A DNA stretch of 64,000 bases from an alpha proteobacterium SCGC AAA536-K22 (GTDB lineage: Bacteria > Pseudomonadota > Alphaproteobacteria > Puniceispirillales > Marisalimonadaceae). The DNA is taken from NCBI GenBank assembly GCA_000421325.1, contig ATWQ01000002.1, positions 1 to 64,000 on the forward strand, written 5' to 3'. This document shows positions 39,511-58,678 of this stretch, in pieces; position 1 is the first letter of the stretch; each line of letters starts with the position of its first letter. The notes below the pieces were generated by a model that was not told the DNA's origin, did not search any database, and saw only the letters and a program-made list of their open reading frames with translations. Made by a program: the position numbers and the translations under genes.

Positions 39511-39600
39511 GGATGGGTGACTGAGCGGTTGAAAGTACCGGTCTTGAAAACCGGCGAAGGTGAAAGCCTTCCGTGGGTTCGAATCCCACCCCATCCGCCA
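39511..39600 (+). tRNA. tRNA-Ser (anticodon UGA)
   Basis: 90-base tRNA with acceptor GGATGGG paired to CCCATCC, discriminator G and encoded CCA. The long variable arm expected for tRNA-Ser is present. The anticodon stem ACCGG/CCGGT closes the loop CTTGAAA, with anticodon TGA at 39545-39547. Its 3' end has served as the integration site of the island that follows. Confidence 0.97.
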
Positions 39601-39603
39601 TTA
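39588..39603 (+). repeat. attL: tRNA-Ser 3' end repeat bounding the phn island
   Basis: The sequence ACCCCATCCGCCATTA spans the last bases of the tRNA-Ser and three bases beyond. It recurs at 45193-45208 with one mismatch, and 13 bases (CCATCCGCCATTA) match without change. This is the usual sign of site-specific integration by a tyrosine recombinase into a tRNA 3' end. Confidence 0.8.
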
Positions 39604-40025
39604 AATACTCATAAGTTATTGATTTAATTGATATTAATAATAGTTAAATACACTTACCCACCACTCTACCCACCACAAAATCTCAGATCAAAACAGACCT
39701 TGCCAACAAGATGCATAAAACGTGCTTTTGGTCACGCTAGTTAAAGCCCTGATTACTTTTCTTGCATCTATGACGACAGTTGAACTCTAAGAATTCGTGT
39801 GTAAGCCTTAATCGTATCGCAGACCAACTGCAGTGGCGTTTATACCCTACCAGTGTAAAATATCTCAGGGGCCCGACACATATTTGGAAGTAATTCATCT
39901 GTTTTGATAGTGTATGCTCTGCGGGTTGCGGGTAGCACTTCACATGTCGTAGGCCTTGGGCCATGTTTTTGGAGAAAGTTTTGTGGTTGATAGATATGAA
40001 TATTAGATTCATTTTACTATCTTAG
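39604..40025. other. Stretch without a recognisable gene between tRNA-Ser and the integrase remnant
   Basis: About 420 bases. A minus-strand open frame of 91 codons exists here (39737-40012), but its translation shows no family pattern, is rich in unlikely residues, and I do not support it. The sequence is more mixed in composition than the AT-rich chromosome and may be decayed integrase or phage-related DNA. CCCACCAC occurs twice just after the tRNA (39659-39675). Confidence 0.5.
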
Positions 40026-40202
40026 AATTTGATAGACATTGTTAGGTGTCATTCTGCTAGAAATTTTTTACATGATCTAAGACATGAGGCAATATCAAGA
40101 ATGTTTGAAAAAGGATTGAATGTACCAGAGGTTGCGTCAATTAGTGGTCATAAAACAGTGAGACAGTTGTTTAGATATGCTCAAGTTAATGGCAGGTTAT
40201 GA
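40026..40202 (+). pseudogene. C-terminal remnant of a tyrosine recombinase (phage-type integrase)
   Basis: Read in frame to TGA at 40200-40202, this gives [26 protein letters not shown] and LFRYAQVN. These contain the HxLR box, the GH(K) box and the terminal catalytic Tyr of tyrosine recombinases. A stop (TAG 40023) ends the frame upstream, and the catalytic N-terminal half is missing. Position just inside a tRNA gene is where an island integrase is expected. Confidence 0.85.
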
Positions 40203-40245
40203 GCTTGAGGAACTTTTTTCAAAAAATATTATATATTTTTTCTTT

Positions 40246-40266
40246 ACCTTACTATTGGGGTAAGGT
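40246..40266 (+). terminator. Hairpin downstream of the integrase remnant
   Basis: ACCTTAC and GTAAGGT pair over seven bases around a seven-base loop, 44 bases past the integrase stop. TTTAAGTATTTTG follows. It is probably the old terminator of the integrase gene. Confidence 0.4.
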
Positions 40267-40320
40267 TTAAGTATTTTGTTATCTTTAAATCAACTAAAAG
40301 CATACTTATATCACGATGGC

Positions 40321-40425
40321 TTAATCTTTCTCAACTGCAACGGCGTCCTTAGCAGACCCAATATAACCATGTCCAGAGACAGATATTAGTGGGGTAAAGA
40401 GTTTTAATGCGAAACTATAGTAGTC
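40321..40425 (-). pseudogene. Unidentified C-terminal coding fragment next to phnM
   Basis: A 34-codon open stretch that ends at TAA (40321-40323). It reads like real protein (FALKLFTPLISVSGHGYIG, then a charged end) and begins within two bases of the phnM stop in another frame. I do not recognise the family. It may be the tail of a gene lost by deletion inside the island. Confidence 0.3.
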
Positions 40426-41635
40426 AATTTAAGTGATTTTTAATGCGATATGCTGCCCTACCAGCAATCCAAGTACCCTCGATTACTGGTGCTTGACCCT
40501 TCGTCCAATCCACTAAAACTAGATCTGCCCGGCTTCCAATTGTTATACTCCCACGATCGTTAAGTCTCATTGCACGAGCTGGGCCGCTGGATAGTAAGGA
40601 CCAAAGGGTAGCTCTGTCAGCACGCTTTTCGCGATCTAGCCTGTCAATCGCTGCTAACATGGCTGGATAAAAATAATCAGATGCAAGCGCATCGCATAGA
40701 CCTGCTTCAACCATGTCAGCAGCACCGATAGACCCAATATGACTGCCACCTCGCGCAGCATTTGGAGCACCAAGGATAATCAAGTCCTCATGATTTCGTG
40801 CAGCTTCCACAGCTTCCATCACCATTGGAAACTCCGCAATTGACGAACCTAGATTACGAAAATATGCCCTTGTGTCTGCCCGAGTGTCGTCGTGACTAAG
40901 CATTGGTGCTCCTGCAGTAGATGCCCTGCTTGCAACTTCAGAAATTTTATTAGGCACCTCACTCCTACGTTCCCAAACCTTTCCTAACATGGCGATATAG
41001 TCTTCTTGACTTAGGCCAGCACGTTGAGCCTTAGATAAGATCCGCTGCTTCATTCGGTCGTCGTCGAGGGAAGCAATCGAAAATTCAGGCGAAAGTTCAA
41101 ATTCTCTTTCCTGAACAGGAACATCATAAGCGCGCATTGTCATTGATGTATGATCGTTGAATCCAACAGAGGGTAGCAATGGCCCCTTAAGTGCCAACTC
41201 GATGACATCCAGAGCTTCAAAAGCGAAGGTTTCCCACCGTAATTGAACTCGATTTTCAACGGTTAATCGTAGCGCAAGATCCCGTATTGACTGTATTAGT
41301 TCTCGTCCACGCGCCACATTGCGCAACCCGGGCTCCCAACCTAGTGTAATCGCATGATAGGCTGTAGTGATTCCGTTTGCCGCCAATTGTCGGTCCGTAT
41401 CAATTAGCGCGACCTCTTTCGGAAAATAGACCCCTGGACGTGGCATAAGTTGACGCTCGAATGCATCGCCATGCACATCGATTATTGCAGGCGCAACGAT
41501 TTTGTCATGTGCACTTATTTCTAAGCCTTGCACCGCCCCACCAATTTCAACAATTACTCCATCGGCCACTGTAACGGTTGTGTTCACAATTTCTCCAGGA
41601 AGATATACTTCTGCCCCAACAAAAGTCTGGGTCAT
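40424..41635 (-). CDS. phnM: PhnM-type amidohydrolase (ribosyl-phosphonate triphosphate diphosphatase family)
   Basis: PhnM hydrolyses alpha-D-ribose 1-methylphosphonate 5-triphosphate to the 5-phosphate in the C-P lyase pathway. The diagnostic DVHGDAFERQLMPRPGVYFP is present, with GFNDHTSM, a late GAPNAARGGSHIG and SALASDYFYPA. The frame extends to 41668, but ATG 41635 forms an ATGA overlap with the methyltransferase stop and has GGAG upstream. The genes phnG to phnL are missing from the window, so the enzyme is an orphan here. Confidence 0.9.
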   Translation of the reverse strand: MTQTFVGAEVYLPGEIVNTTVTVADGVIVEIGGAVQGLEISAHDKIVAPAIIDVHGDAFERQLMPRPGVYFPKEVALIDTDRQLAANGITTAYHAITLGWEPGLRNVARGRELIQSIRDLALRLTVENRVQLRWETFAFEALDVIELALKGPLLPSVGFNDHTSMTMRAYDVPVQEREFELSPEFSIASLDDDRMKQRILSKAQRAGLSQEDYIAMLGKVWERRSEVPNKISEVASRASTAGAPMLSHDDTRADTRAYFRNLGSSIAEFPMVMEAVEAARNHEDLIILGAPNAARGGSHIGSIGAADMVEAGLCDALASDYFYPAMLAAIDRLDREKRADRATLWSLLSSGPARAMRLNDRGSITIGSRADLVLVDWTKGQAPVIEGTWIAGRAAYRIKNHLN

Positions 41636-42303
41636 GCTTGACGCTCCAAAATTAGATGCCAATGCCACGAACCTGGCTTTTCATGCTCTCTATCCTCCAT
41701 CCAGAGCACTTCAAAACCCTGAAACAGGCAAAGCATTTCAGTAGCTTCACAGTAGTAGTGAGGATGGATTTTATCAGAACTGTTTTCATCGAAAACCCAT
41801 GTGTTACGAGAAATTTCACGAGGTCCATTAAGGTTTTTTTGATCTATCCTTAGTCTACGTTTGGACAACATTGTGAGCAAAAACGTTCCTCCTCGTTTAA
41901 GCACACGGCGGACCTCGCTTATCGTATTTAAAACTACTGTCTCGTCACCGTGATAAATTACGTTCCAACTCAGTACATGGTCAAAACAAGCATCAGCAAA
42001 TGGCAATCGATCCATGCGACCTATCTTAGTTTCAATATTTGGGTCAGCATTATTTATTTCAGACAGGCCTCCAGGTGCTGCATCGAGAGCCGTTACGTCA
42101 AATCCTGCAGAACTTAATGCTAGAGTATGTCGACCAACCCCAGAACCGAGATCAAGTATGGCTGAGCCTGCCTTCAAACTTTTAGCCCAACGTTTTACGT
42201 CCGGTTCAGGCGTAAGCCATTTTGAACCTTCCTCAATATTGTCCCAAATTTTATTCCAATATTGATCTGCGGTATCTGTCTTTAACTCAGTATTATCGTT
42301 CAT
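41632..42303 (-). CDS. Class I SAM-dependent methyltransferase in the phn cluster
   Basis: 223 aa Rossmann-fold methyltransferase. Motif I is ILDLGSGVGRHTLALSSAGF (near residue 50), followed by VTALDAAPG and LPFADACFDHVLSWNVIYHG. It resembles ubiquinone/small-molecule methyltransferases, with no clue to the acceptor. Its ATG overlaps the phnE end and its TGA overlaps the phnM start, so translation is coupled to both. A methyltransferase between a phosphonate permease and PhnM is unusual. Its substrate may be a phosphonate or a ribosyl intermediate; that is inference. Confidence 0.87.
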   Translation of the reverse strand: MNDNTELKTDTADQYWNKIWDNIEEGSKWLTPEPDVKRWAKSLKAGSAILDLGSGVGRHTLALSSAGFDVTALDAAPGGLSEINNADPNIETKIGRMDRLPFADACFDHVLSWNVIYHGDETVVLNTISEVRRVLKRGGTFLLTMLSKRRLRIDQKNLNGPREISRNTWVFDENSSDKIHPHYYCEATEMLCLFQGFEVLWMEDREHEKPGSWHWHLILERQA

Positions 42304-43123
42304 TTTTCATCACCAATTTGCGTAAGTAGGTGCTCAACTGCTCGACCACCAGGACAAGTGCAAAGATCATCCCGATGATCACCATGGCCCGGTCATATGC
42401 CATCCAGTTCATCAGGCTTTGTAGTTCAAGACCGATTCCCCCAGCCCCGACGAGACCAAGAACGACCGAGGATCGGATCGCCTTTTCAAAGGCAAACAGC
42501 GAAGTTGTTATCAGACCCGGTGTCGCCGCCGGCACAACAGCCGCAAAGACGATGTCGAATCGGCGCGCACCGCTTGCCGACAGCGCTTCTGCGGAACTGC
42601 GATCGACATCTTCCATCTCCTCGGCAAAAAAGCGCCCACAGAAGCCAATAGTATCCACCATGATAGTCAGCGTTCCCGCGAAGGCTCCAAGCCCGACGAC
42701 CATCACAAAGATGATGGCCCACACCAAATCAGGAACGGTGCGAAACAGCGAGATCAGCATTTTCACTGACCATTGCAGCAAATTTGACCGGCGCGACTCG
42801 AACATCAGTCCGCGTGACGCAAACAGCGCCAGAATGAAGCCGATGACCAGGCCTAGAAGTGTTCCCACAAAAGCCATCTGGAAGGTTTCAATCAGGGCCA
42901 ACCAGTATCGATGAAATTGATCGAAGGTCAGGCGGTGCTCATCGATCGGCGGAAACGCCTCGCGAAGGAAACGCAGCAAATATTCTGATGACCCAAGAAG
43001 CTGTGTGATCGAGAAACCAGACCCATCGAAGCACCAGGCAGACACCAGAAGAAACAGGATTATCGCCAAAATTCCGGAGATCGGTCTGTTGCCAAAACGT
43101 GGAGGTACAGCGGCTCTACGCAT
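42293..43123 (-). CDS. phnE: Phosphonate ABC transporter permease
   Basis: Inner-membrane permease of 276 aa with about six hydrophobic segments. It shows FQMAFVGTLLGLVIGFILAL and RTVPDLVWAIIFVMVVGLGA, typical of PhnE, and the EAA loop in ALSASGARRFDIVFAAVVPA. A single phnE gene serves the system here. It overlaps phnC by eight bases. High GC compared with the chromosome marks recent acquisition. Confidence 0.93.
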   Translation of the reverse strand: MRRAAVPPRFGNRPISGILAIILFLLVSAWCFDGSGFSITQLLGSSEYLLRFLREAFPPIDEHRLTFDQFHRYWLALIETFQMAFVGTLLGLVIGFILALFASRGLMFESRRSNLLQWSVKMLISLFRTVPDLVWAIIFVMVVGLGAFAGTLTIMVDTIGFCGRFFAEEMEDVDRSSAEALSASGARRFDIVFAAVVPAATPGLITTSLFAFEKAIRSSVVLGLVGAGGIGLELQSLMNWMAYDRAMVIIGMIFALVLVVEQLSTYLRKLVMKNER

Positions 43124-43880
43124 ATTCAGCTTTCAGCGCTTGCAGATCGACACTACCGGTGGGACAGTCAATGCTGATCTTACCGGATTTCATTGCCATC
43201 ATCCGGTCTGCAAAGTCAACTGCATGCGAAATATTGTGTGTTGAAAAAATCAGGCTGACGCCGGCCTCCCGACACAACTCGGAAAACAGTCCCATGACCT
43301 CTTCGCCGGCAATCGGATCAAGACTGGCGGCAGGCTCATCGGCAATAATTAGGTCAGGTTCCTGCATCAAGGCACGGGCGATGGCTACGCGCTGTGACTG
43401 TCCACCTGACAACGTGTCCGCACGGCGATGCGCCAGATCTGCGAGATTGACCCGCTCGAGGCATTCCATAGCGCGCTCACGGTGGGCACTGCCAGCGATG
43501 ATATGAGACCAAAGAGTGATCCCCGAGATCATGCTGCCAAATGTCTGGGTGTTTCGACCAAGTGCGCCATGAACAACGTTGGACAACACTGAAAGGCGTG
43601 GCACCAGATTGTGCTCCTGAAAGACAACACCGACACGACAGCGGGACGACCGCAACTCGGATGGCTTCAGGTTCTGTATTTCGCGGCCGAACAGCGATAT
43701 CCGCCCGGCTGTAATCGGTTCGAGACTCAAGAGGCAGCGGATCAATGTTGACTTGCCAGCCCCATTCGAGCCGATCAGAGACAGCGACTCCCCTGCTTCC
43801 AATGCAAAAGACACGCCTTTCAGTATAGACATGGTCCCGTATCTCATGGCTATGTCCTCAGCGGTGACGATGGCTACCAT
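43116..43880 (-). CDS. phnC: Phosphonate ABC transporter ATP-binding protein
   Basis: ABC ATPase of 254 aa. Walker A LIGSNGAGKSTLIRCL (near residue 36), signature LSGGQSQRVAIARAL and Walker B LIIADEPAASLDP are intact, with the switch His in STHNISHAVDFA. The RCRVGVVFQEHNLVPRLSVL segment matches PhnC. It starts 65 bases after phnD and overlaps phnE. Confidence 0.94.
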   Translation of the reverse strand: MVAIVTAEDIAMRYGTMSILKGVSFALEAGESLSLIGSNGAGKSTLIRCLLSLEPITAGRISLFGREIQNLKPSELRSSRCRVGVVFQEHNLVPRLSVLSNVVHGALGRNTQTFGSMISGITLWSHIIAGSAHRERAMECLERVNLADLAHRRADTLSGGQSQRVAIARALMQEPDLIIADEPAASLDPIAGEEVMGLFSELCREAGVSLIFSTHNISHAVDFADRMMAMKSGKISIDCPTGSVDLQALKAEYA

Positions 43881-43945
43881 CTAGATCTCCAAATGCGCTG
43901 AAGGCACAGCACTTGCCGTGCCCGCGCTTTGTTTGCGAAGAGGGT

Positions 43946-44848
43946 TTACTCCTGAATACCAAATTCAGGCAAGCCAGCGGTGATGTACATGTCGCGGACC
44001 ATGTCGTAATCGGAGTCGTCGACTGGAAGAAGACGGGTGCCTTCGTACTTGTCGTTGGCCATCTCGCCCTTATCGTCCAGCCCGGCCAGGATGCCAGCAA
44101 CCATCATGGCTTCATTGGCAACGATGGCGTTCTTGATTTCGTCACGCTCTGTTTGGGTTAGGTGACCGGCACCCATGATCATGTCGTAAGGCAGGTCACC
44201 AGAACGTGCAAGAACCTTATAATCGCCATTGCCGTTCTCCTCCTTGCTACGGTCATACTTGATCCAGGAGGAGACTTTCACACCAATCGCAGCTGTATCA
44301 CCACGAACAAGGCCGGTATGCTGCAGGTTCTTCTTAGTGTGAACAACCTTGATGTCCTTCACCGGGTTGAGGCCATGATCCATCAGCACCTGCATCGGGC
44401 AGAAATGACCAGAGGTCGAACCCGGGTTGGCGAAGGAAACGGCCTTACCCTTGAGGTCGGATACGCGGTTAATGCCGTCAGCGTTCTTCACGACGATGCC
44501 GCAATAGTAGTCCGGGCGCGCAAGACCAATCATGGCTTCAGCGTTGGTAAGCTTGTTGATAGCGACATATTCAGCCGGACCAGTGATGGCGAAGTCTAGC
44601 TTCTTGGAGCGAAGCGCTTCAGCGGTTGCAGTCTGACTGGTGACCGGGAAAAACTCGAAGCTGTGTCCTGTGGCCTTTTCAAGGGCTTCCTTGAATGGTC
44701 CCCACTCGGAGATCAGCGCATCCATGCCTTGAATATCTGTAACAGCGATTTTGTAATCTTTTGCGCTGGCGGTAGAGAAAACGCCGGCGGTGAGCACAAC
44801 GGCGAGCGTTGCTAAAAAAAGTTTAAGCGTTGAAAAAAGTTTAAACAT
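43946..44848 (-). CDS. phnD: Phosphonate/phosphite ABC transporter substrate-binding protein
   Basis: Periplasmic binding protein of about 300 aa. A signal peptide precedes the mature start at KDYKIAVTD. PhnD-family positions are the EWGPFKEALEKATGH segment, FAITGPAEYVAI and SFANPGSTSGHFCPMQVLMD. The family binds phosphonates, phosphite or similar anions. The frame opens at 44872, but AAGGGG lies nine bases before ATG 44848, which also gives a clean signal peptide. It is the first gene of the cargo operon and is preceded by a Pho-box-like repeat. Confidence 0.92.
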   Translation of the reverse strand: MFKLFSTLKLFLATLAVVLTAGVFSTASAKDYKIAVTDIQGMDALISEWGPFKEALEKATGHSFEFFPVTSQTATAEALRSKKLDFAITGPAEYVAINKLTNAEAMIGLARPDYYCGIVVKNADGINRVSDLKGKAVSFANPGSTSGHFCPMQVLMDHGLNPVKDIKVVHTKKNLQHTGLVRGDTAAIGVKVSSWIKYDRSKEENGNGDYKVLARSGDLPYDMIMGAGHLTQTERDEIKNAIVANEAMMVAGILAGLDDKGEMANDKYEGTRLLPVDDSDYDMVRDMYITAGLPEFGIQE

Positions 44849-44906
44849 GAAGAAAGCCCCTTTCATAGGCATGCAAGTTAATATATTTAAATTATCAACA
44901 TCCGCA

Positions 44907-44944
44907 TATTACACTTTTGTGACCCGCCTATTACATTTTTGTGA
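44907..44944 (-). promoter_or_regulatory. Tandem Pho-box-like direct repeat upstream of phnD
   Basis: Two 16-base copies, TCACAAAAATGTAATA and TCACAAAAGTGTAATA in minus-strand sense, start 22 bases apart and differ at one position. Each resembles the PhoB site pattern (TGTCA-type half-sites at 11-base steps: GTCAC then TGTAA). They lie 59-96 bases before the phnD start. A-T-rich candidate -10 sequences follow. Control by phosphate starvation is therefore likely but inferred. Confidence 0.6.
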
Positions 44945-45192
44945 AAGGGTATTTCATCTGGGTTGCAAGGGTACAAAATGCCAAAAGTATGCTCGGATTC
45001 TGCGTCAACCAAATTTGGGTATTAAGATGGATTGGCAGGCTCGTAATCCAAAACTGCGCTTGACGTATCGGTTACGCGGTGACCGGTAATGGGAGAACTC
45101 ACCAGCGAATATTACCAAACCTGATCGAAGGTTAGGCTACTGTCCTTATTTTACAGGACGAAGAAAGTGGTACCCTGTTCAGACGAAATAAT
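44945..45192. other. Island right end, no gene recognised
   Basis: About 250 bases between the Pho-like repeat and attR, of intermediate composition. A short hairpin (GTCCT, eight bases, AGGAC) lies near 45142-45160. An open plus-strand frame crossing this stretch antisense to phnD shows no family pattern. Confidence 0.4.
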
Positions 45193-45208
45193 ACACCATC
45201 CGCCATTA
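45193..45208 (+). repeat. attR: distal copy of the tRNA-Ser 3' end
   Basis: ACACCATCCGCCATTA, 15 of 16 bases identical to 39588-39603, in the same orientation. It marks the right border of the island; AT-rich chromosome with a membrane-protein gene follows. Confidence 0.75.
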
Positions 45209-45273
45209 TAAATCCACTAACCTACTTATATTACTATCCTAAGGGTATCCTTCACTGACAGGATTGCCAAAGG

Positions 45274-45666
45274 TCATATTTTAAATAGAAAGTCCCAACC
45301 AGTAACAAGCACCATTAAGTTTAAAAATGCTATTATAGCAGGAGCGACGTAACCTTCAGCAGATGTTTTTACGCCGTCAACAGAACCCCAATAACTATGG
45401 ATAGTTTGAAAGCAAACAACAGCGCCAATACATGCCTGCACAAAACCATAGACAAACAGTAACCAAGCGCCTTCAATAGAAGTGAGTAAAGCTATAGCTA
45501 GGGTGACCGCAAAACCAGCAGCAAAAGTGCCAACAAGTCTTGTCATAATTGCGCTACCTTCACCAAAGCCATATTTCTCAATATACTTGCGTGTTTGGAA
45601 AATACATTGATAAGCATAAATCAAATTTCCAAATATTATTAGTGCTATGAGTGAATAAATTAGCAT
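45274..45666 (-). CDS. Small four-helix membrane protein of unknown function
   Basis: About 130 aa with four hydrophobic segments (near residues 2-20, 45-65, 68-88 and 105-127) and short hydrophilic links such as GFGEGSAIMTRL. The frame opens at 45738, but the first 24 residues look non-coding. ATG 45666 with AGAGGG about ten bases upstream is the better start. I do not recognise a family. It lies just outside the island's right border. Confidence 0.6.
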   Translation of the reverse strand: MLIYSLIALIIFGNLIYAYQCIFQTRKYIEKYGFGEGSAIMTRLVGTFAAGFAVTLAIALLTSIEGAWLLFVYGFVQACIGAVVCFQTIHSYWGSVDGVKTSAEGYVAPAIIAFLNLMVLVTGWDFLFKI

Positions 45667-45870
45667 TTTGGTAAAGCCCTCTAAACTCTCAATTGGGGAA
45701 CAGATTTTCCATAAAATTAATACCCATCTAAAGCACAACGAGTAAATAAGAACAAAAAAACATTGCAGGTTAAGTACCTATTTTTAATATAAGCTTATTT
45801 AATTATTTGTAAATAAGTTGGTTTAGATTGTTAGATTGGTTTAAAAGTTACAATATATGTGTGAGTAATA

Positions 45871-45966
45871 ATGGCTAAGGAAAAAATTGAACATAAATTT
45901 GCAGTGATCTTTGCGATTGATGTTGTTGGATATACTACAATCCGTTTTAAGTATTATATAAAATGA
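45871..45966 (+). pseudogene. N-terminal remnant of a class III adenylate/guanylate cyclase
   Basis: A 31-codon frame from ATG 45871 to TGA 45964-45966. It opens like class III cyclases: a charged start, then FAVIFAIDVVGYTTI, which matches the usual LAAILAADVVGYSRL metal-binding opening. The rest of the catalytic domain is absent, and the next gene starts inside its last codons. It is a truncated relic. Confidence 0.55.
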
Positions 45967-46517
45967 AAGTTTTTCAAAAATTAGATGATTTTTTGGACTT
46001 TGCCTGGGTACAGATTTCTCGGGGAAAAGTTGACAAAAAATCGCCCGCAAGGCACCCTACTTTTGTGACATCAAGTGTCGATGGTTTACCAAATGCTCGT
46101 ACTTTAGTGATGAGACGAAGCGATAGGAAAAATAATCAGATAGAGTTCCACACGGACACCGCTTCTTCAAAAATGTTGGCCCTCGAGAAGAACCCTCGTG
46201 CTGGAATTCACATTTGGCTTCCAAAAGTCCAACTACAAATTCAGATGGATGTTTTTGTTGAAGTTAAGGTTGGCGACATTACTATTCCATACTGGAAAAA
46301 TGTTCCAACTAACTCTAGGGTTTCTTATGGCACTATTCCCAGCCCTGGTAACGTTCTTGAAAACCCCTTTGCCTATGATCATGCACCAGATCAGAAACGT
46401 TTCGCCGTTTTGGTATGTGATATACAATCAATTCAGCTATTGCTTTTAGGAGTTAAACATATTCGTGCTTATTACAAAAAGACGACTAATTGGCAAGGAG
46501 AATGGCTCTCTCCTTAA
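45963..46517 (+). CDS. PPOX-class FMN-dependent protein (pyridoxamine phosphate oxidase-like)
   Basis: 184 aa split-barrel flavoprotein. It has RHPTFVTSSVDGLPNARTLV near residue 35, VMRRSDRKNNQIEFHTDTAS with the phosphate-binding residues, and a C-terminal KKTTNWQGEWLSP, which is the Alr4036/PdxH-like ending. It differs from true PdxH in length, so the exact role is open. It begins in the last codons of the cyclase remnant and is followed by a broken hydrolase copy on the other strand. Confidence 0.8.
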   Translation: MKVFQKLDDFLDFAWVQISRGKVDKKSPARHPTFVTSSVDGLPNARTLVMRRSDRKNNQIEFHTDTASSKMLALEKNPRAGIHIWLPKVQLQIQMDVFVEVKVGDITIPYWKNVPTNSRVSYGTIPSPGNVLENPFAYDHAPDQKRFAVLVCDIQSIQLLLLGVKHIRAYYKKTTNWQGEWLSP

Positions 46518-46561
46518 ATTGTAACCTTAATAATTACAATACTATAGATTAATTATAAAAT

Positions 46562-46779
46562 TATCTAATTCATTCAATTAATTATATTTTTTTAAAAAAT
46601 TTATGTTCTCATCTAACACTTTGTAAAAACACTCTGATCCAGGATAAAGTAAACCAAAGTGTCCACCATCAATCTTAACAAAATATTTTGGAGCATTGAT
46701 TAATTTATAACATTTTCCCATAACTATTGGATTTGCCCTCCAAACTTCATCATCGAACGTATGTATTACTAAAGTTGGA
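46562..46779 (-). pseudogene. Truncated copy of the alpha/beta hydrolase C-terminus (direct repeat, left copy)
   Basis: These 218 bases repeat 50382-50599 without gaps, with about 13 differences by eye. The coding part (46578-46779) keeps its frame and stop and carries the catalytic His region of the alpha/beta hydrolase at 50398 (GGHFGLLYPGSE). Nothing of the N-terminal three-quarters is present, so it cannot fold. The 340-base gap 46518-46857 holds nothing else. Confidence 0.88.
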
Positions 46780-46857
46780 ATGAAATGTCTTCTTTTACAA
46801 ACTTTAATTAACTTTTAACTGGTATATATTTAACATATTAAATAGTATTTATTTATC

Positions 46858-48795
46858 ATGAATGTGGAATGGAAAAAATATGATGTTTTAGTAATTGGAT
46901 CCGGAGGTGCTGGTTCACATGCAGCACATGCCGCGTCTAATAAAGGTGCATCTGTATTAGTTGTTTCAAAAGATCCGTTAGGAGTATCAGATACAAAAAT
47001 TTCTGAAGGTTTGGCCACTGTAAGAGAGTCAGGCTCCAATGATGATAGTGTTGAAACCTTATCGGAAAACATAAAGATGGCAGGTGCCGATCTATCAATT
47101 GAAAGTTTAACTAATGCATTTTCTCAAGATAGTAAGCTAGCTTATGATAAATATAGAGAAAATGGTCTTAGACCTACAATTTCTTTAAAATCACAAACTC
47201 CAAAACCCCTCCCTTTACCTCTAGGAGGCCATACAAGAAGGAGAACAGTTGGGCATAATAATAGTGGAATTGCTTTTGCCCATGCTAATTGGAATGCAAT
47301 TGTAAGCAAAGGTGAAATAGACTACAAAGAAGATTGTTGGATAATTGATATTATAGTTGATAAAAAAACTGTTATTGGTGCAGTTGCTTATGATGCTCAA
47401 AAAGGAATAATTCTAGCTATTCAATGTCCGTCTGTAATTATTGCTGCAGGTGGGTTATCAACATTATATTTTCCTAAAACAGATACTTTAAGAGGAAATA
47501 CAGGTGATAGTTATGCCCTTGCTGTAAGAGCTGGTGCAGATATGGTTGATATGGAACAAATTCAATTTTTACCTTTTTGCCTAACTTCTCCACCATCATA
47601 TGAGGGATTATTGGCGGGTGAACCAGTAACAGCAAGTTTTCTAGGTGTGTTAAGAGATAAAAACAAAAACATAATTCTAGATAGTGTTTTTTTAAGAACT
47701 CGAGCTCAATGTTCTGAAGCAATCATGAAATCTGTAGAAAAAGGTAATGGAACAATTAATGGTGGTGCTTTCTTAGATATGAGCGCTAATAAAAGAGCTC
47801 CAAAATCTGGACCTTATTTTATGGAATATCTTAAAACGAGTCTTCCTTCGGCATACAATAATGTAAGACAAGCCCTAAGTAAACCTGCCTCTCAATGTGA
47901 TGAACTTTGGGAAGTTAGGCCAGGAGCGCATTATATGATGGGAGGTTTAAGAGTTAATGAATTTGGTGCATCTGTAGCAGGAGAGCTTTATGGAAAAGTT
48001 GACTTAGGAGTTTCAGGGCTTTTTGCGGCTGGTCAATCAATGGGAGGTTTATTTGGAGCAAATAGATTAGGTTCAACTTCACTTACTGAAGGAGCCGTGT
48101 TTGGATTAAGATCTGGGGAAGCTGCAGCTAAAAATTCAATTTACAATCCATTAAAACTTCAAAGTAATGACAAGTTTTTAAAAAAAATTTCTGAAATAGA
48201 TAATATTTTGGTAACAAAGGGTAAATATTCGTCATCTTCTATTAAAAAAGACATCCAAAAAGCATGTTGGAAAAATTTAGGCCCAATAAGAGATAAAAAA
48301 AGATTAAATAAAATAAGAAAACTTATAGAACTTTGGAAAAAGAAAATTAAAAATATACAAATTGAAGATACTTTAATTTGGAACCAGTCATTTATAGAAT
48401 ATATAGAAGTGAAGAATATGATTGATACAGCAGAAATAATGCTTTTTGCAGCAGAAGAAAGAAATGGAAGCATTGGAGGACATGTTAGAATTGATTGTAA
48501 AAATATTTCAATGTTTTCAAAACCCTACTCTACGGTAGTCAATATTAACAATGACAAATCTTTTAATGTAAAAAGAGTATATAGAAACCGAACACCATTA
48601 AAAAGAATGCTTTTTTATAAAGTAGAGGAAATAAAAAGATTATTAGAAGCTAAAACTATTCGTTTTTTACCTTTGTCAATTAAAGATAAAATTCTTGAAA
48701 AAAAGTATAAAAATATTATGGAAAACAATGATGAAATGTCTTCTATTTATCCTGGAAGTCCAGAAGCAGCAATAGGAGAGAAAACAACCTTATGA
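46858..48795 (+). CDS. FAD-binding fumarate reductase/succinate dehydrogenase-like flavoprotein subunit
   Basis: 645 aa flavoprotein of the FrdA/SdhA/AprA superfamily. The FAD motif is VIGSGGAGSHAA near residue 12. HTRRRTVGHNN, GAHYMMGGLRV and LFGANRLGSTSLTE carry the His and Arg residues of the substrate site. Its last four bases overlap the Fe-S subunit gene. No membrane-anchor genes follow, so this looks like a soluble two-subunit enzyme such as thiol-type fumarate reductase. The substrate is unknown. It lies between two direct repeats. Confidence 0.88.
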   Translation: MNVEWKKYDVLVIGSGGAGSHAAHAASNKGASVLVVSKDPLGVSDTKISEGLATVRESGSNDDSVETLSENIKMAGADLSIESLTNAFSQDSKLAYDKYRENGLRPTISLKSQTPKPLPLPLGGHTRRRTVGHNNSGIAFAHANWNAIVSKGEIDYKEDCWIIDIIVDKKTVIGAVAYDAQKGIILAIQCPSVIIAAGGLSTLYFPKTDTLRGNTGDSYALAVRAGADMVDMEQIQFLPFCLTSPPSYEGLLAGEPVTASFLGVLRDKNKNIILDSVFLRTRAQCSEAIMKSVEKGNGTINGGAFLDMSANKRAPKSGPYFMEYLKTSLPSAYNNVRQALSKPASQCDELWEVRPGAHYMMGGLRVNEFGASVAGELYGKVDLGVSGLFAAGQSMGGLFGANRLGSTSLTEGAVFGLRSGEAAAKNSIYNPLKLQSNDKFLKKISEIDNILVTKGKYSSSSIKKDIQKACWKNLGPIRDKKRLNKIRKLIELWKKKIKNIQIEDTLIWNQSFIEYIEVKNMIDTAEIMLFAAEERNGSIGGHVRIDCKNISMFSKPYSTVVNINNDKSFNVKRVYRNRTPLKRMLFYKVEEIKRLLEAKTIRFLPLSIKDKILEKKYKNIMENNDEMSSIYPGSPEAAIGEKTTL

Positions 48796-49508
48796 AACAA
48801 AATTCAAAAGATATTTTAGATGTTAAAATAGTTACACATAAAGATGGTAAAGATAAGGTTGTAGAATTCCAATATAGAAAATCTTCTATTAATGAAAAAA
48901 CAATGGCATTGGATGTTCTTTTACAGGCTCAAGATACAATTCTTCCAAATCTTGCATTCCGTTATGGATGCAGAGCAAGGAATTGTGGTGTTTGTACTAT
49001 AGACATAAATAATTTGCCTAGGATTGCTTGTAGATCCGTTGTAAGGAATGGTGATGTTTTGAAGGCTATGAATACTTTGCCAGTGTTATCTGATTTAGTG
49101 GTAAAGAGAGATAATATATCAAGACAATTGAGAGGTAAATTAAAGACAAATACTACAAAAAATGATCTCAATGTTGAAGCGCCTAAAGAATATCACGAAT
49201 TAACTGCGTGTATAGAATGTTACGCATGTTTAGAAAAATGTCCCATGCATGAAAAAAATAGTCATGATTTGAAACCTAATTATGAAAAAGAATATAAGTG
49301 GGGAAACCCTTTTACACTTTTAAAATTACAAACTGTTATACTTGATCCATTAACATCTAAAGATGACGTTAAGTATTCAATTAATAGCGCAATTGACTTT
49401 GGTTTAGAGGAATGTTTGGATTGTCCTGGATGTAAGTGTGGAGTTGGGATAGACTTAAAAGGAAAGGTTATTAAGCCACTTGTTGAAAAATCAGGTTTGT
49501 TGAGATAA
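48792..49508 (+). CDS. Fumarate reductase-like iron-sulfur subunit
   Basis: 238 aa SdhB/FrdB-type protein. The [2Fe-2S] domain has YGCRARNCGVC and a later Cys in IACRS. The second domain has CIECYACLEKCPM, and further Cys residues occur in CLDCPGCKCGVG near the C-terminus. The last motif differs from the classical CxxCxxxC triplet, so cluster composition may differ. It overlaps the flavoprotein gene, and electrons would flow from FAD through these clusters to an acceptor not encoded here. Confidence 0.87.
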   Translation: MKQNSKDILDVKIVTHKDGKDKVVEFQYRKSSINEKTMALDVLLQAQDTILPNLAFRYGCRARNCGVCTIDINNLPRIACRSVVRNGDVLKAMNTLPVLSDLVVKRDNISRQLRGKLKTNTTKNDLNVEAPKEYHELTACIECYACLEKCPMHEKNSHDLKPNYEKEYKWGNPFTLLKLQTVILDPLTSKDDVKYSINSAIDFGLEECLDCPGCKCGVGIDLKGKVIKPLVEKSGLLR

Positions 49509-50231
49509 TTATTTTTTCAAAATATCTTTCAATTCATCAAAATTTTCAACTATAATATCATGATTGGAATTTGGGTTAGGATCAGGGGGGCCCTCTTCCC
49601 CCCATTCATCTACTCTTTTTACAAAAGCCGTTTGAAATCCAACTTTTTTAGCCGCATCAAGATCAAAATTATGACAAGCAACCATCATACATTCGCTTAC
49701 ATTAAGTTGAAGATATTTAGCTACTGATAAGTAGGCTTCAGGCAATATCTTATACTTACCTATTCCCTCGCAAGAAAAAATTGCATCCCATGAAATATTA
49801 TTATATTTGGCATTATCAATTATTATCTTATAACTAAGTATAGTAAAAGAAACAGTAATAAATTGTTTTTTAAATTCAATTAAATTACGTGGAAAGTCTT
49901 CCCAGCATTTAAAGGAATGTGGTGTGTTGTAAGATATGTTAAATATATCTTCTTCATTAAATTTTTCTAAATTATATTCTTTTACAATTTCTTTTAAAGA
50001 AAATTCATGTGCATCATCAAAGTTATATTCTGGTATTTTGTTTTCCCCAAGATTGAGCATTGCTTTTAAGCTTCTTCTTCTTAGTTCGTTAGCTAAAAAT
50101 GACCAGTCCTTGCTATAATTATATTTTTTACCCACTAAGGAAAACGCTTTTTTGAAACCTGTATGCCAATCTAACACAGTTCCGCCTGTATCAAAGGTTA
50201 ACGCCTTAATATTTTTAAACTTAGCGCACAT
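49509..50231 (-). CDS. Haloacid dehalogenase-like hydrolase (type II 2-haloacid dehalogenase family)
   Basis: HAD-superfamily protein of about 240 aa. The nucleophile is in LTFDTGGTVLDWH (near residue 13). The Lys motif is around GKYKILPEAYLSVAKYL and the final acid motif is in MVACHNFDLDAAKKVGFQTA. A TTG at 50243 is in frame, but GGAG follows it. ATG 50231 is the better start, six bases after that site. It is convergent with the Fe-S subunit gene. It may be a dehalogenase or a phosphatase. Confidence 0.85.
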   Translation of the reverse strand: MCAKFKNIKALTFDTGGTVLDWHTGFKKAFSLVGKKYNYSKDWSFLANELRRRSLKAMLNLGENKIPEYNFDDAHEFSLKEIVKEYNLEKFNEEDIFNISYNTPHSFKCWEDFPRNLIEFKKQFITVSFTILSYKIIIDNAKYNNISWDAIFSCEGIGKYKILPEAYLSVAKYLQLNVSECMMVACHNFDLDAAKKVGFQTAFVKRVDEWGEEGPPDPNPNSNHDIIVENFDELKDILKK

Positions 50232-50250
50232 TAAATTCTCCAACTTTTGG

Positions 50251-50378
50251 TCATTTTCCCTTTATCTTTGAAGTCATTAATTTAAAAGGTTTTTCTACTA
50301 AGTATAATCGTTGTATCCTAAGCGAGCAATAATTTTCATTTTAAGAATATCAACTATTCCATCTGCGGTAATAAATTC
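50251..50378 (-). pseudogene. C-terminal remnant of a flavin-reductase-like protein
   Basis: Minus-strand codons give EFITADGIVDILKMKIIARL and GYNDYT before TAG at 50298-50300. A shift to the next frame continues with LVEKPFKLMTSK and ends near 50251. This resembles the last part of flavin reductase-domain proteins (RLGYxDYT then VEDVF). The rest is missing. It sits between the HAD gene and the alpha/beta hydrolase. Confidence 0.45.
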
Positions 50379-50381
50379 AAC

Positions 50382-50599
50382 TATCTAATTCATTCAATTA
50401 ATTATATTTTTTTAGAAAATCTATGTTCTCTTCTACTACTTTGTAAAAGCACTCTGATCCAGGATAAAGTAAACCAAAGTGTCCACCATCAATCTTAACA
50501 AAATATTTTGGAGCATTGATTAATTTATAACATTTTCCCATAACTTCTGGATTTGCTCTCCAAACTTCATCATCCATTGCATGTATTACTAAAGTTGGA
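50382..50599. repeat. Right copy of a 218-base direct repeat
   Basis: Matches 46562-46779 in the same orientation with roughly 94 percent identity by eye. It covers the last part of the intact alpha/beta hydrolase gene and 16 bases beyond its stop. The repeats are 3820 bases apart and flank the flavoprotein, Fe-S and HAD genes. Confidence 0.88.
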
Positions 50600-51321
50600 C
50601 ATTTAATAAATTTTACAAGATAAGATGGAAAAGGTTTTATAGGTGTTTTTAAAGTGACAACTGTTATCCAGTTTTTCCAATTTGAATTAGGCATCCCTCC
50701 AAATTCTATAAACCATTTATAAGCTTGAGGAAAATTTAAAAATGATGGTTGTACTTCTGGAAATGGTGACACCATAGGTAACGGTCCAATGACATCCCTT
50801 TCAAACTCACTTAGATTTGAATTATAATAAATATTTTTTAATTTTTTTAAATATTCATCTCCTTGATCGTATTCAAAAAACTGATCGCCAATTGCTGTTG
50901 TTTGAATAATTAAAGAAGAAACTCTTCTGTCAACAACAGATACTAGCATCGCAACCCAACTAGAAAAACTATCTCCCCAAACATTTATTTTATTACTATC
51001 TATATTTGAATTTTTTTCTACAAAAGATATAGCGTCTCTATATCCTCTTGCTTGTCTCCAGAGTTCAATTTCCACTCTGGGATTTCCATCACTTGAACCT
51101 ATGCTGGGATGATCATAAACTAAAACAGCAAAACCTGATTTGCTTATTTCGAAAGCATAATCAATAATAGCCATATTATATGTAGCAGAAGAACCATGGG
51201 TCATAATTAATACTGGCAAATTTACATTTTCTTCTGGAGTAATTAACCTTCCCCTTAAAGTTATTCCATCTGACTTGAATTCTATATTTTCAATATTTAA
51301 ATTTGATTTGTCGTTATTCAT
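50398..51321 (-). CDS. Alpha/beta hydrolase
   Basis: About 307 aa hydrolase. It has an oxyanion HGSSATY segment, YDHPSIGSSDG, the nucleophile elbow NVWGDSFSSWVA, the acid in HAMDDEVWRANP and the His in DGGHFGLLYPG. The frame extends to 51447, but that part crosses a palindromic repeat and looks non-coding. ATG 51321 (MNNDKSNL) is the first plausible start, though its ribosome site is weak. The substrate is unknown. The C-terminal quarter is duplicated at 46.6 kb. Confidence 0.82.
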   Translation of the reverse strand: MNNDKSNLNIENIEFKSDGITLRGRLITPEENVNLPVLIMTHGSSATYNMAIIDYAFEISKSGFAVLVYDHPSIGSSDGNPRVEIELWRQARGYRDAISFVEKNSNIDSNKINVWGDSFSSWVAMLVSVVDRRVSSLIIQTTAIGDQFFEYDQGDEYLKKLKNIYYNSNLSEFERDVIGPLPMVSPFPEVQPSFLNFPQAYKWFIEFGGMPNSNWKNWITVVTLKTPIKPFPSYLVKFIKCPTLVIHAMDDEVWRANPEVMGKCYKLINAPKYFVKIDGGHFGLLYPGSECFYKVVEENIDFLKKYN

Positions 51322-51643
51322 TGAGTTTACACATCTTTGAGAATTAAAATTACCTGTTCCTAAGTTATTAACATTCAAAAACTTGATATTAAATAGAATT
51401 AAATGTAGTTCAAACAAAATTACAAGCAACCAACTCCACCAACCCATCCTTGAAACCTAGTCCACGCTCCATGGACTTCGGTCAATGGGAAGATTATACA
51501 CTGACTATTAACTTTTCTTACTTAGACAAGGTTAAATAAAAAATTGTTTACAAAAAAGGTATAACTTTCAAATGTCAACTTTCTAGACAGGATTTAAATT
51601 TTTAATTATTATTTTACAAAAAAAATATAAAAGTGATTTTAAA
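51322..51643. other. AT-rich intergenic stretch with a palindromic repeat
   Basis: Between the alpha/beta hydrolase and the divergent dioxygenase gene. The only structure I see is the 40-base palindrome at 51450-51489. The rest is AT-rich and would hold both promoters. Confidence 0.5.
51450..51489. repeat. 40-base palindromic element, copy 1
   Basis: Outer arms TTGAAACC/GGTCAA and inner arms GTCCA/TGGAC fold into a two-stage hairpin. The same 40-base layout recurs at 58679-58718 and, decayed, at 58200-58238. No open reading frame is involved. Confidence 0.7.
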
Positions 51644-52519
51644 ATGAAAATATCTAAATTGCATGAAAATATTGGCGTTTCTGTCGAAGAAATTGATTTA
51701 AAAAATATTAATCACAAAGATCTTGAAAGAATTAAAATTCTATGGATGGAGAATTTAATAATACTTTTTCCCAATCAAAACATATCTGACGAAGACCACA
51801 TTATTTTTGGAAAAAAATTTGGTGAGCTTGAAATCCACCCTTCTTTATCACACAGATCTTCAAAAAACTCACAAATTTATAGAGTATCAAATGTTGACGA
51901 AGAAGGTAAAATTATCCCAGATAAACAAACATCCTGGCAATATTTAAAACAATCATGGTTATGGCATACTGACAGCTCTTTTCGAAAAATTCCAAGTAAC
52001 GGATCTATTTTACATGGTATCAATACTACCAAAAAAGGTGGAAACACTCTTTTTGCTAATATGTATAAGGCCTATAATGACCTTGATAGTTCATTAAAAG
52101 AAGAAATCAAAAAATTAAAAGTTGTTCATGACCATGATTATATTATTAATCTTTCTAAGGAATTAAGTAAAAAAAGGGATAAAGGAAATTATGATGAATT
52201 ATTTCCGGTTGTTCATCCGTTAGTCAGGAGGCATCCTGTAACTAATAAGCCAAGTCTTTTTTTATCTCCACACACCATGGTAAAAATAGAGAATTATGAT
52301 GAAGTAAAAGGTAGAAAGTTATTAGACAAATTAATTAAACATTCTATCCAAACAAAATATGTCTATAAACATGTTTGGTCTGATCATGATATTTTGATGT
52401 GGGATAATAGGTGTACAATGCATTCTGTAGAGCCATTTAATAATAATACTGTTAAAAGAATAATGCACAGAGTTACATTAGTAGGCGATCATGAACCTAA
52501 AATGGCTTCATTAAATTAA
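51644..52519 (+). CDS. TauD/TfdA-family Fe(II)/2-oxoglutarate-dependent dioxygenase
   Basis: 291 aa non-heme iron oxygenase. The 2-His-1-Asp facial triad begins with HTD in LWHTDSSF (near residue 109) and ends with the His in CTMHSVEPF. The conserved Arg binding 2-oxoglutarate is in RIMHRVTLVGD. The core LFPNQNISDEDHIIFGKKFG is typical of the family. Substrates in the family include taurine, sulfonates and herbicide acids. No other sulfur genes are nearby, so the substrate is open. Confidence 0.9.
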   Translation: MKISKLHENIGVSVEEIDLKNINHKDLERIKILWMENLIILFPNQNISDEDHIIFGKKFGELEIHPSLSHRSSKNSQIYRVSNVDEEGKIIPDKQTSWQYLKQSWLWHTDSSFRKIPSNGSILHGINTTKKGGNTLFANMYKAYNDLDSSLKEEIKKLKVVHDHDYIINLSKELSKKRDKGNYDELFPVVHPLVRRHPVTNKPSLFLSPHTMVKIENYDEVKGRKLLDKLIKHSIQTKYVYKHVWSDHDILMWDNRCTMHSVEPFNNNTVKRIMHRVTLVGDHEPKMASLN

Positions 52520-52576
52520 ATGTCTTCTAATCTATTAAATATTCTATTTTACAATCCAACCATTCAATTTATTGTT

Positions 52577-53743
52577 CTAAAAAAACATATTTATCGTCAA
52601 GGTGAGTGCATCATCATCAGATAATTGTCCAAATGCAGATGTGGCTGTGCGTGCATTATAAAACTGGCTGGTCAATTTTACACTGGTGACATCATTGATC
52701 CGTCGAGACGCTTCAAAAGAAACAAATGACTGATCCGTTTTACGATCCACTGATACCAAAAATAGGATATTGCTGTCTGCAATGTCATTAAATACCAGCC
52801 TTATACCAGCAACACCAAATTGATTGGCTGCGGCCTGTGGACGATCGTCATGTTGAATTTCACCAATCAAGCCAATATCCCATATTTTTTCAAATGGTCC
52901 GTAATAAGTATATTCAATACCCACAACAGCCGCTGCAAAATCATGCACGCCAATTAAGCTGCTTTGGGTGCCATGAAGGCTTTCCCATTTGAGCAATGTC
53001 ACATTACCCGTATATTGGGCTTCAAATCCAATTGATTTTTGTAAAGCGTAATAGGGGTTTAATGCGCTGCCATCACTGCTGATAGACAAAATGGGATCAC
53101 GGGCGGTACCGTAAAAAACACTACCTGCTAGATCCCAATCTCCGGCAAAGCTGGATAAGCGTGCCGCAAAATCATCTGCATCCTTGTCATCTTTACGCGC
53201 ATATTGTGCAGAAATGACTGGAACTCCACTACTAGGATGTGCGTCACTATCGTTAAAAGTTTTTTCTCGAAAACCAGAAATATACCAAAGTTGCAGGTCA
53301 CCAATATCTAAATAGCGCTCAGCAGATATAGATGGTGCCCCAAGTTTACCTGATTTCGTATCATTTGCTGCGGCATCGGACTGGTTAATAACATCAACAA
53401 CATTTTTGCTTTCTGCTTTGCCCCAAAATTCCTGACGATTTCCAACAAAAACATCAAATCCAGCAAAGGGAGTACGAATATAAGCCTGTCGAGCTTCAGT
53501 GATCCGGCGACCACTATCTTTTTTATCCCCACGGAAAATGAATTCACCTACAATTCGACTTTCGTCAAAATCATGAAAGGCATCAATCTTCAATTCCGCC
53601 GATCGCCCTTCTGACGACGTACCATCAGCATGATCTGGGTAAAAATCCAGCCGTGATGATAACGTGCCATTAACTTCGCCACCAAAAGCCGTTTGTGCTA
53701 ACAAAAGGACAATGGCAAAGATACCAGCAAAAGATGTGATCAT
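52577..53743 (-). CDS. Outer-membrane beta-barrel protein of an RND-associated cassette
   Basis: 388 aa with an N-terminal signal peptide (residues 1-22, ending AFGGE) and alternating beta-strand pattern to the C-terminal Phe (LTLTINMFF), which is the outer-membrane insertion signal. It resembles barrels that accompany LolA-like proteins and MMPL-type RND pumps (DUF1302-like). The gene overlaps the LolA-like gene by four bases (ATGA). Composition is clearly richer in GC than the chromosome, as for the whole cassette. Confidence 0.75.
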   Translation of the reverse strand: MITSFAGIFAIVLLLAQTAFGGEVNGTLSSRLDFYPDHADGTSSEGRSAELKIDAFHDFDESRIVGEFIFRGDKKDSGRRITEARQAYIRTPFAGFDVFVGNRQEFWGKAESKNVVDVINQSDAAANDTKSGKLGAPSISAERYLDIGDLQLWYISGFREKTFNDSDAHPSSGVPVISAQYARKDDKDADDFAARLSSFAGDWDLAGSVFYGTARDPILSISSDGSALNPYYALQKSIGFEAQYTGNVTLLKWESLHGTQSSLIGVHDFAAAVVGIEYTYYGPFEKIWDIGLIGEIQHDDRPQAAANQFGVAGIRLVFNDIADSNILFLVSVDRKTDQSFVSFEASRRINDVTSVKLTSQFYNARTATSAFGQLSDDDALTLTINMFF

Positions 53744-54525
53744 CGAGTTCGTTTCAATGCAGATTTTTCAAAATCACGTTCGGTCATGCCGGTTTGTAAT
53801 TTCCAATCGGCAAACACAAGTTCCGTTTTCTTGCCTGTCTGGTGATTAATCATAACCAAACGATTAGACCGCCAGAACTTATCTAGATATTGATTATAAT
53901 CGTCATAGGTCAAGGTTTTCAAAAGTGCGTCTTTGCGGTCATAGAAATCAATTTTATGAACGCGGTATTCAGCCTTATCCATCCAAACAATCTGTCGCTT
54001 ATAACCACTTTTACGATCAACCGGATCATATTCAACAACAAAACAGTCAAGACCATTCAACTCTTCATCACGCAGATAATTATAGGTGTATTTTTCAACT
54101 TCCTGACTGGCGATATCTTCATACGAAAATTCACTACCCATAAAAGGACCTGCCTTATTTGACGAGGCGATACGTTTAACGCGTTTCAGAGCTGGTAAAT
54201 ATAGCCATTGGTCATCAGAGTCAGCCTTCTTTGTGTGCGAAAGGAAAGCTGTGCCACGTACATCACCCGGACTATCAAATATCACCAGAGACTTATCACC
54301 TTCGTTATCACCCTCAAACGTTCTATTACGGATCGCACGTTCAGTTGATTGACCATATTTGTCCATTAGGATCATTGTTATGTGTGCGGTTGAATCACCA
54401 AACCCCTTATCGCGGCTATCGGCTTCAATCGCAATCTCTAGTCCTTTTTCAGGCGAGGCAAATGCCCCTGTTGTCATAGCGGCAGAGGCGATAGCGACAA
54501 ACATGGTTGCAGTAGCAAGTTTCAT
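53740..54525 (-). CDS. Outer-membrane lipoprotein-sorting protein (LolA-like domain)
   Basis: About 261 aa with a signal peptide (residues 1-24, ending GAFA). The mature part shows SFEGDN-like turns, WLYLPALKRVKRI, FMGSEFSYEDI and GYKRQIVWMDK, which characterise the LolA-like family found beside RND transporters. The frame extends to 54561, but AAGGAG lies seven bases before ATG 54525. It overlaps the barrel gene and probably ferries a lipid or lipid-linked molecule from the pump to the outer membrane. Confidence 0.86.
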   Translation of the reverse strand: MKLATATMFVAIASAAMTTGAFASPEKGLEIAIEADSRDKGFGDSTAHITMILMDKYGQSTERAIRNRTFEGDNEGDKSLVIFDSPGDVRGTAFLSHTKKADSDDQWLYLPALKRVKRIASSNKAGPFMGSEFSYEDIASQEVEKYTYNYLRDEELNGLDCFVVEYDPVDRKSGYKRQIVWMDKAEYRVHKIDFYDRKDALLKTLTYDDYNQYLDKFWRSNRLVMINHQTGKKTELVFADWKLQTGMTERDFEKSALKRTR

Positions 54526-54553
54526 TTTGGTCTCCTTGGACAACATTATAAGC

Positions 54554-58008: not shown

Positions 58009-58026
58009 AATAAGTACCGGCCCCAA

Positions 58027-58635: not shown

Positions 58636-58678
58636 TTGCACAAATAAAATTAGATCAAGTTAAATTAATTACTCTTCA

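Follow-up and report, generated by a model that had tools for sequence, protein, structure and literature searches.

A small phosphonate-gene island at the 3' end of a tRNA-Ser(TGA) gene in an ocean alphaproteobacterium, very probably inserted by site-specific recombination

A site-specific recombinase is usual in islands located at tRNA genes, it is not however required, and decayed islands often lose the gene; att-flanked elements which lack an integrase and are mobilised by a recombinase supplied in trans are known as cis-mobilizable elements (CIMEs). Here we describe an island carrying a phosphonate operon next to a tRNA-Ser(TGA) gene in alpha proteobacterium SCGC AAA536-K22 (assembly GCA_000421325.1, a draft genome of 2.0 Mb in 92 contigs, 79.8% complete). 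The window analysed is the stretch of DNA at positions 1-64,000 of contig ATWQ01000002.1. Labels of the G0xx type denote genomes of the host order, including relatives from the host genus, G000 being the host itself and C4 one of its contigs; L0xx labels denote the loci or records compared.

Tycheposons, which belong to Prochlorococcus, are also reported in Methylophilaceae in the cited part of PMC10872708, where an additive island with repeated 20-nt tRNA-Lys ends as its markers is described as well, and a passage of PMC11389934 lists them among proposed phage satellites. In the phosphonate islands of HIMB59, phnDCE, a methyltransferase and a hydrolase accompany the carbon-phosphorus (C-P) lyase according to the cited section of PMC10734472, in which a paragraph devoted to islands sharing the pst operon states that insertion sequence elements and tRNA are absent at island boundaries. 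For SAR116 in phosphorus-poor seas, C-P lyase enrichment is reported in an excerpt of PMC6852614. No description of tRNA islands of such kind in SAR116 was found among the titles and abstract starts listed by searches of the open literature, subscription papers lying outside them.

The segment 39604-45208 is very probably a small cargo island that site-specific recombination placed at the tRNA-Ser(TGA) 3' end; it carries phnD-phnC-phnE-methyltransferase-phnM of Rhodobacteraceae type. The site and its repeats are:

39511..39600, + strand: tRNA-Ser(TGA), the integration site, a complete gene after the insertion (ARAGORN, Rfam tRNA)
39588..39603, + strand: left att repeat (attL core)
45193..45208, + strand: right att repeat (attR), holding the crossover

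The two 16-nt repeats agree at 15/16 nt (94%), 13 of them contiguous, exactly as a first-pass annotation of this DNA had noticed, with 39591 corresponding to 45196 (CCATCCGCCATTA). Both cores are still present around the island, so the immobility assumed in the first pass is no more than possible. When the downstream 20 kb was shuffled 300 times under a first-order Markov model, one shuffle gave a 13-nt match to the 28-nt query. At the right border, the record labelled Rhodobacteraceae bacterium AG-359-N23 (L095), matching window positions 40316-45211 at 95.3% DNA identity, remains homologous through CACCATCC (45199) and then breaks off inside the repeat. In the genus relative G022, which represents an empty site, tRNA-Ser runs straight into the post-repeat sequence, with 26/28 nt identical to window 45196-45223 (11 of the 28 positions being core, 16/18 beyond it). 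The two comparisons meet in the right repeat and bracket the crossover at about 45196-45206. A tyrosine recombinase would have exchanged strands within CCATCCGCCAT, leaving a complete tRNA at the left and a core copy at the right.

Another kind of empty site is found in G032 and G035, where MltB, tRNA-Ser and the gene for a 154-aa protein (45274 in the window) are adjacent and the phn genes absent. At the left border, sequence shared within the genus (85% to G000:C4:15314-15571) extends to 40317 and L095-like sequence starts at 40316; the tRNA-Ser of G008 is followed by the same left end (89%) with other cargo. The SAR116 records L096 (AG-355-O21) and L097 carry the operon at other places, and their homology with the window ends at 45086-45092, short of the repeat. 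The combination named in the first pass as fatal to its reading, namely phn genes elsewhere in relatives together with the 45193 sequence lacking an island, was thus not seen, and its placement of both borders at the repeats is upheld by the divergence of L095 after 45199 and by the two kinds of empty site, the one it had predicted being present in G022, though with the short match given above. The locus has the tRNA 3'-end target, the far direct repeat, empty sites in relatives, and foreign composition and phylogenetic origin that characterise tRNA-associated islands; of the recombinase gene, only about 45 C-terminal codons are present.

The cargo consists of five genes and an upstream repeat:

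40424..41668, - strand: phnM-like gene, alpha-D-ribose 1-methylphosphonate 5-triphosphate diphosphatase subfamily (NF011987, 348.6 bits, cut-off 253)
41632..42303, - strand: S-adenosylmethionine-dependent methyltransferase (Pfam Methyltransf_25/11)
42293..43123, - strand: phnE, phosphonate ABC permease (TIGR01097, above cut-off)
43116..43880, - strand: phnC, ABC ATPase (best match TIGR02315, under its cut-off)
43946..44872, - strand: phnD, periplasmic binding protein (PF12974; TIGR01098, above cut-off)
44907..44944, - strand: two TCACAAAARTGTAATA direct repeats, period 22, upstream of phnD

Phosphonate cargo had been recognised in the first pass, a view with which the NCBIfam matches of PhnE and of the PhnM subfamily agree. 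All five frames are open, and ratios of nonsynonymous to synonymous substitution rates against L095 (phnM 0.11, methyltransferase 0.10, phnE 0.09, phnC 0.15, phnD 0.07) indicate purifying selection, so that the cargo looks functional. The start of phnD is more likely at 44848, the beginning of a signal-peptide-like stretch as judged by eye. Its product scores over the cut-off of the broader binding-protein model TIGR01098 and under that of the PhnD equivalog; as the nearest solved chain is PtxB, a phosphite-binding protein (5o2j, E 6.8e-17), the ligand could be phosphite or a phosphonate. For PhnM, no solved-structure relative was obtained at E 0.01. The operator-like repeats upstream of phnD (period 21-22) occur twice in the window and about three times in L095 (1049-1109); both window copies are exact, the pattern was however drawn from them, and with up to 2 mismatches 11/100 window shuffles also give two matches. 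A Pho box consensus gave no match before phnD at up to 3 mismatches.

No gene of the C-P lyase core phnGHIJKL was found within the island among open frames or by Pfam and NCBIfam, i.e. the island does not hold a C-P lyase operon. The host has PhnJ at C4:48603, with neighbouring phn-like genes on that contig, and two other PhnM-like genes of 35% and 31% identity. PhnDCE would import a phosphonate (or phosphite), PhnM and the methyltransferase may process the substrate or an intermediate, and the C-P bond would be cut by the host's own C-P lyase on C4, in which case the island would widen an existing phosphonate diet and not create one.

The origin of the operon lies outside the host genus. Operon loci were taken from one genome_contigs scan, and among the best 80 of 127 confirmed relatives the order phnD-phnC-phnE-methyltransferase-phnM is kept in 75, a count that includes L096 in spite of its shortened phnM. 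PhnI or PhnJ lies within the fetched stretch in 22/80 of these loci, which links the operon with the use of phosphonates. In a tree built from 83 methyltransferases, the window, L095, L096 and L097 form one clade (support 100/99), nested in a clade of 12 (100/94) whose other 8 rows are Roseobacteraceae or Paracoccaceae; two more distant methyltransferases of the host's order fall far outside it. At E 1e-20 the methyltransferase is matched in 4/136 genomes of the order, closely in two, G000 and G092 (the latter match being the L097 locus of SAR116, at the same coordinates, for which reason the host's order is regarded as the SAR116 order), and in no other genome of the genus among the 136; no PhnM above 40% identity was found in the other 60 relatives searched.

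Compared with the operon as it occurs in Rhodobacteraceae, the window has the same gene order and, in L095, a near-identical counterpart (four of the five proteins 97-99% identical, PhnC 95%), whereas in loci other than L095-L097 PhnD (32-53%), PhnC (39-53%) and PhnE (40-65%) are distant where found, with phnM reaching up to 80% and the methyltransferase up to 79% identity. The lineage of the window and L095-L097 has therefore a different phnDCE. In L096, around 7150-7600, SAR116 AG-355-O21 carries this same operon with phnM cut after 66 codons.

Base composition had been expected to change sharply at both repeats, which is true of the left one: GC is 20-33% in 500-nt windows at 34.0-39.5 kb and 43-58% across the cargo, and GC at third codon positions rises from 0.13-0.19 in six genes left of the tRNA to 0.36 in phnM, 0.33 in the methyltransferase and 0.60-0.62 in phnE, phnC and phnD. 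The change inside the operon, between phnM/methyltransferase and phnE/C/D, was considered as a border and rejected, L095 already showing the same step. On the right no sharp step is present, the next two genes (45274-46517) still having 37-40% GC and other acquired genes blurring the border; composition stays off the host level at 45.2 kb because the site is a stacked, variable one in which the phn island forms the layer next to the tRNA:

39601..59692: variable region of about 20 kb, from tRNA-Ser to a D-serine-dehydratase-like gene (59693), with the phn island as its tRNA-proximal segment
51443..51530, - strand: degenerate copy of a 103-nt island-end repeat
58674..58765, - strand: degenerate copy of the same repeat

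In the tRNA-Ser(TGA) loci fetched from genus relatives (n=21, stretches reaching 0.8 to about 12 kb past the tRNA), phn genes were found in none, and the D-serine-dehydratase-like gene lies downstream in 16/21, at distances ranging from about 250 nt (G021, G022) to more than 11 kb (G013), as against 20 kb in the window. A four-gene module of 37-43% GC, encoding the 154-aa protein, a 388-aa protein without Pfam match, a LolA-like protein and MMPL, occupies 45274-45738 and 52577-56884 of the window, split by PPOX, SdhA/B-like, HAD, hydrolase and TauD genes; it is also present at tRNA-Ser in G032 and G035 and at tRNA-Asn in G008 and G023. Segments of the variable region come and go separately, so the description of 39604-45208 as a small island holds insofar as it is an inserted segment and needs amending insofar as the variable region is larger and includes further segments.

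The left end of the island is built of DNA that relatives in the genus share:

39604..39866, + strand: att-adjacent element end, also in G013:C1 (84%) and, for its first ~108 nt, at the G008 tRNA-Ser (89%, other cargo)
39655..39673, + strand: two TACCCAC direct repeats (39655, 39667), 12 nt apart, arm-site-like, to which an integrase may bind
40062..40202, + strand: 3'-terminal fragment (~45 codons) of a 318-aa tyrosine recombinase, the frame ending at 40202
40193..40317, + strand: tail segment common to the genus, ending where Rhodobacteraceae-like DNA starts (40316)

The G013:C1 copy of the att-adjacent end is preceded by a core copy with one change, and similar TACCCAC-type pairs follow tRNA-Ser(GGA) and tRNA-Ser(GCT) in relatives. 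The integrase remnant proposed just inside the left end does exist, as a recurrent terminal fragment whose subfamily is associated with tRNA-Met: the 44 codons that could be matched align with residues 275-318 of a tyrosine recombinase of 318 aa that is intact in G013, G014 and G003, and the three intact genes checked abut, reversed, the last 57-58 nt of tRNA-Met(CAT), 98-100% identical to the complete genus tRNA-Met. The target of this subfamily is probably tRNA-Met rather than tRNA-Ser, and its enzyme need not therefore be the one that inserted the phn island. In-place decay of a full integrase was rejected, the 957-nt gene being too long for 39600-40202 and the fragment (at 40068 in the window) occurring solo also at G000:C4:15322, C4:25620, G011:C1:180947, G003:C33:3573 and G013:C1:109966. 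As the island has no complete recombinase, its movement would need one in trans, as in CIMEs.

Fragment matches number 39 in 23/40 genus genomes. Of these, 15 reach 80% identity or more: five are part of open frames of at least 319 aa, two of frames with 168 and 220 aa, and eight of frames with 39-58 aa (including, in G019, a frameshifted longer gene). The other 24 comprise 23 in frames of at least 319 aa and, in G025, a single one in a 54-aa frame. A common leader is present in five solo copies. The copies at C4:15k and C4:25k differ by 7 synonymous and 2 nonsynonymous changes, differences being mostly synonymous in proportion to sites, and the ratios between solo copies, measured on short stretches, are 0.06-0.21. 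Solo tails reflect either recent repeated descent from intact genes, refreshing by recombination with them, or selection on the tail. Nested insertions are visible at the tRNA-Ser(TGA) of G013:C1 (L051), where a 150-aa frame resembling the start of a 421-aa integrase follows the tRNA, with an inverted 318-type fragment, and 4.9 kb off a second att core followed by the window's att-adjacent sequence.

A number of observations weigh against this reading of the island's insertion and origin. The G022 match outside the core is short, falling to 19/30 over 30 nt, and elsewhere in the 13.5-kb locus of this genome one position scores 20/30 and three score 19/30; since equal or higher scores occur elsewhere, the match owes its weight to being located at the predicted place. 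In G032 and G035 the spacer right of the repeat is unalignable, homology with the window resuming at 45272. An intact integrase is absent from the island, the subfamily of the fragment adjoins tRNA-Met(CAT) and not tRNA-Ser, and at tRNA-Ser(TGA) in G020 it is the different, 421-aa integrase that is found. Finally, the operon is also carried by the two SAR116 records L096 and L097 (89% DNA identity) and the pairing of window and L095 inside their clade is weakly supported (91/67), therefore direct transfer from Rhodobacteraceae is no more than a possibility.

It may be asked whether the operon arrived on linear DNA and was joined in by illegitimate or homology-directed recombination, with the 45193 core left behind by an earlier island and the CCATCC match representing microhomology. 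At the left junction (40316) the shared bases are few, as judged by eye, and att sequence is lacking, ends of older islands are already found around tRNA-Ser, and the authors describing the HIMB59 phosphorus islands favour homologous recombination, in a passage concerning pst islands (PMC10734472); L095 homology stops, however, within the att core, where the chromosomal side seen in G022 starts, which favours recombination at the core and leaves linear DNA an unlikely source. We give still less credence to the whole 39.6-59.7 kb block being the true mobile unit with 39604-45208 as one part, for although other acquired segments follow directly (the TM154-MMPL module, PPOX, TauD) and degenerate copies of the 103-nt repeat occur at 51.4 and 58.7 kb, G032 and G035 hold the TM154 and MMPL module without the phn part and G022 holds neither. 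An assembly chimera, in which a foreign contig was joined to the fragmented host genome, is suggested by the high protein identity to a record of another family (97-99% for four genes, 95% for PhnC) and by the state of the assembly (79.8% complete, 92 contigs); it is most improbable given that inside the island the foreign part is flanked by genus-shared DNA (39604-40317) and that tRNA-Ser sequence is present at both ends, in a 16-nt repeat that would be shorter than usual assembly k-mers.

The 103-nt repeat was first met beside integrase fragments and gave 64 profile matches in the loci examined, some of these being overlapping fetches of one place; it was matched in 22/25 genus genomes compared with 0/16 others of the order. 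Six near-full copies on G000:C4 (10906, 15178, 21400, 23780, 29423 and 35505) lie in one orientation within 25 kb, downstream of an rRNA operon and tRNA-Met. Five of the 64 matches, from five genomes, are located 107-120 nt past the 3' end of a tRNA on the same strand (tRNA-Ser GGA three, tRNA-Ser GCT one, tRNA-Met one) versus one in the opposite orientation, a count limited by many of the loci having been chosen for holding the repeat. At the tRNA-Ser sites displayed, the interval between tRNA and repeat comprises an AT-rich spacer and two TACCCAC-type direct repeats, as in the window, where the island's left end has no 103-nt repeat and shares with C4 the att segment (73% over 97 nt, C4:15060) and the fragment with its tail (85%). 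Rfam gave no match to the repeat in the window or in three loci holding it, and a conserved fold was absent from 36 copies (consensus -2.43 kcal/mol, a double change in 1/8 pairs), for which reasons a structured RNA and an attC/integron cassette array were both rejected. A viral vehicle for the island was likewise rejected on zero matches in viral_contigs, exact for a 27-nt piece of the repeat and by patterns for the methyltransferase, in scans that reach close matches only.

It is conceivable, if doubtful, that a family of cargo islands peculiar to this low-GC genus of the SAR116 order targets tRNA genes and is moved in trans, and that the phn island arose when Rhodobacteraceae-type DNA was captured by way of a CCATCC core present by chance in the donor. 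Members of such a family would often be without a complete integrase and be marked by a tRNA core, paired arm repeats, the genus-only 103-nt repeat and sometimes the ~45-codon recombinase tail; other loci of the genus have complete tyrosine recombinases beside tRNA-Arg and tRNA-Val. Separately, G000:C4:13500-14602 and G013:C1:108595-109697, 1.1 kb from two species, are 98.5% identical, which suggests recent transfer.

The phn island is well supported. It belongs to an ordinary kind of element, has an unusually clear junction and is a clear but ordinary example of nutrient-gene exchange among ocean bacteria. Base by base, it illustrates the entry of a phosphorus-acquisition operon from another family into an ocean bacterium at a tRNA site, in contrast with the HIMB59 phosphorus islands, for which the authors, in the paragraph on pst, noted the lack of tRNA at the borders and proposed homologous recombination (PMC10734472). 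The 103-nt repeat, the core with TACCCAC pairs and the solo integrase tail are markers for finding such islands and testing their mobility.

With CIMEs and tRNA islands the element shares its location at a tRNA 3' end, a direct core repeat on either side, attL and attR enclosing a segment without a complete recombinase, and cargo between them; unlike CIMEs it shows no evidence of descent from an integrative and conjugative element, and its mobilisation in trans would be predicted from sequence. As described in the cited part of PMC10872708, tycheposons resemble it in marine host, tRNA site, tyrosine recombinase relatives and nutrient cargo, and differ in having a complete recombinase with the tRNA site and cargo, where the phn island has a fragment; the additive island of Methylophilaceae likewise has insertions marked by repeated tRNA 3' ends, with a different tRNA and cargo. 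Closest in content is fGIphn-A of HIMB59, in which, according to the relevant section of PMC10734472, the phnDCE transporter, a methyltransferase and a hydrolase also serve as C-P lyase accessories; there the genes flank C-P lyase on both sides in one island, whereas here they stand alone, bounded by att repeats at tRNA-Ser.

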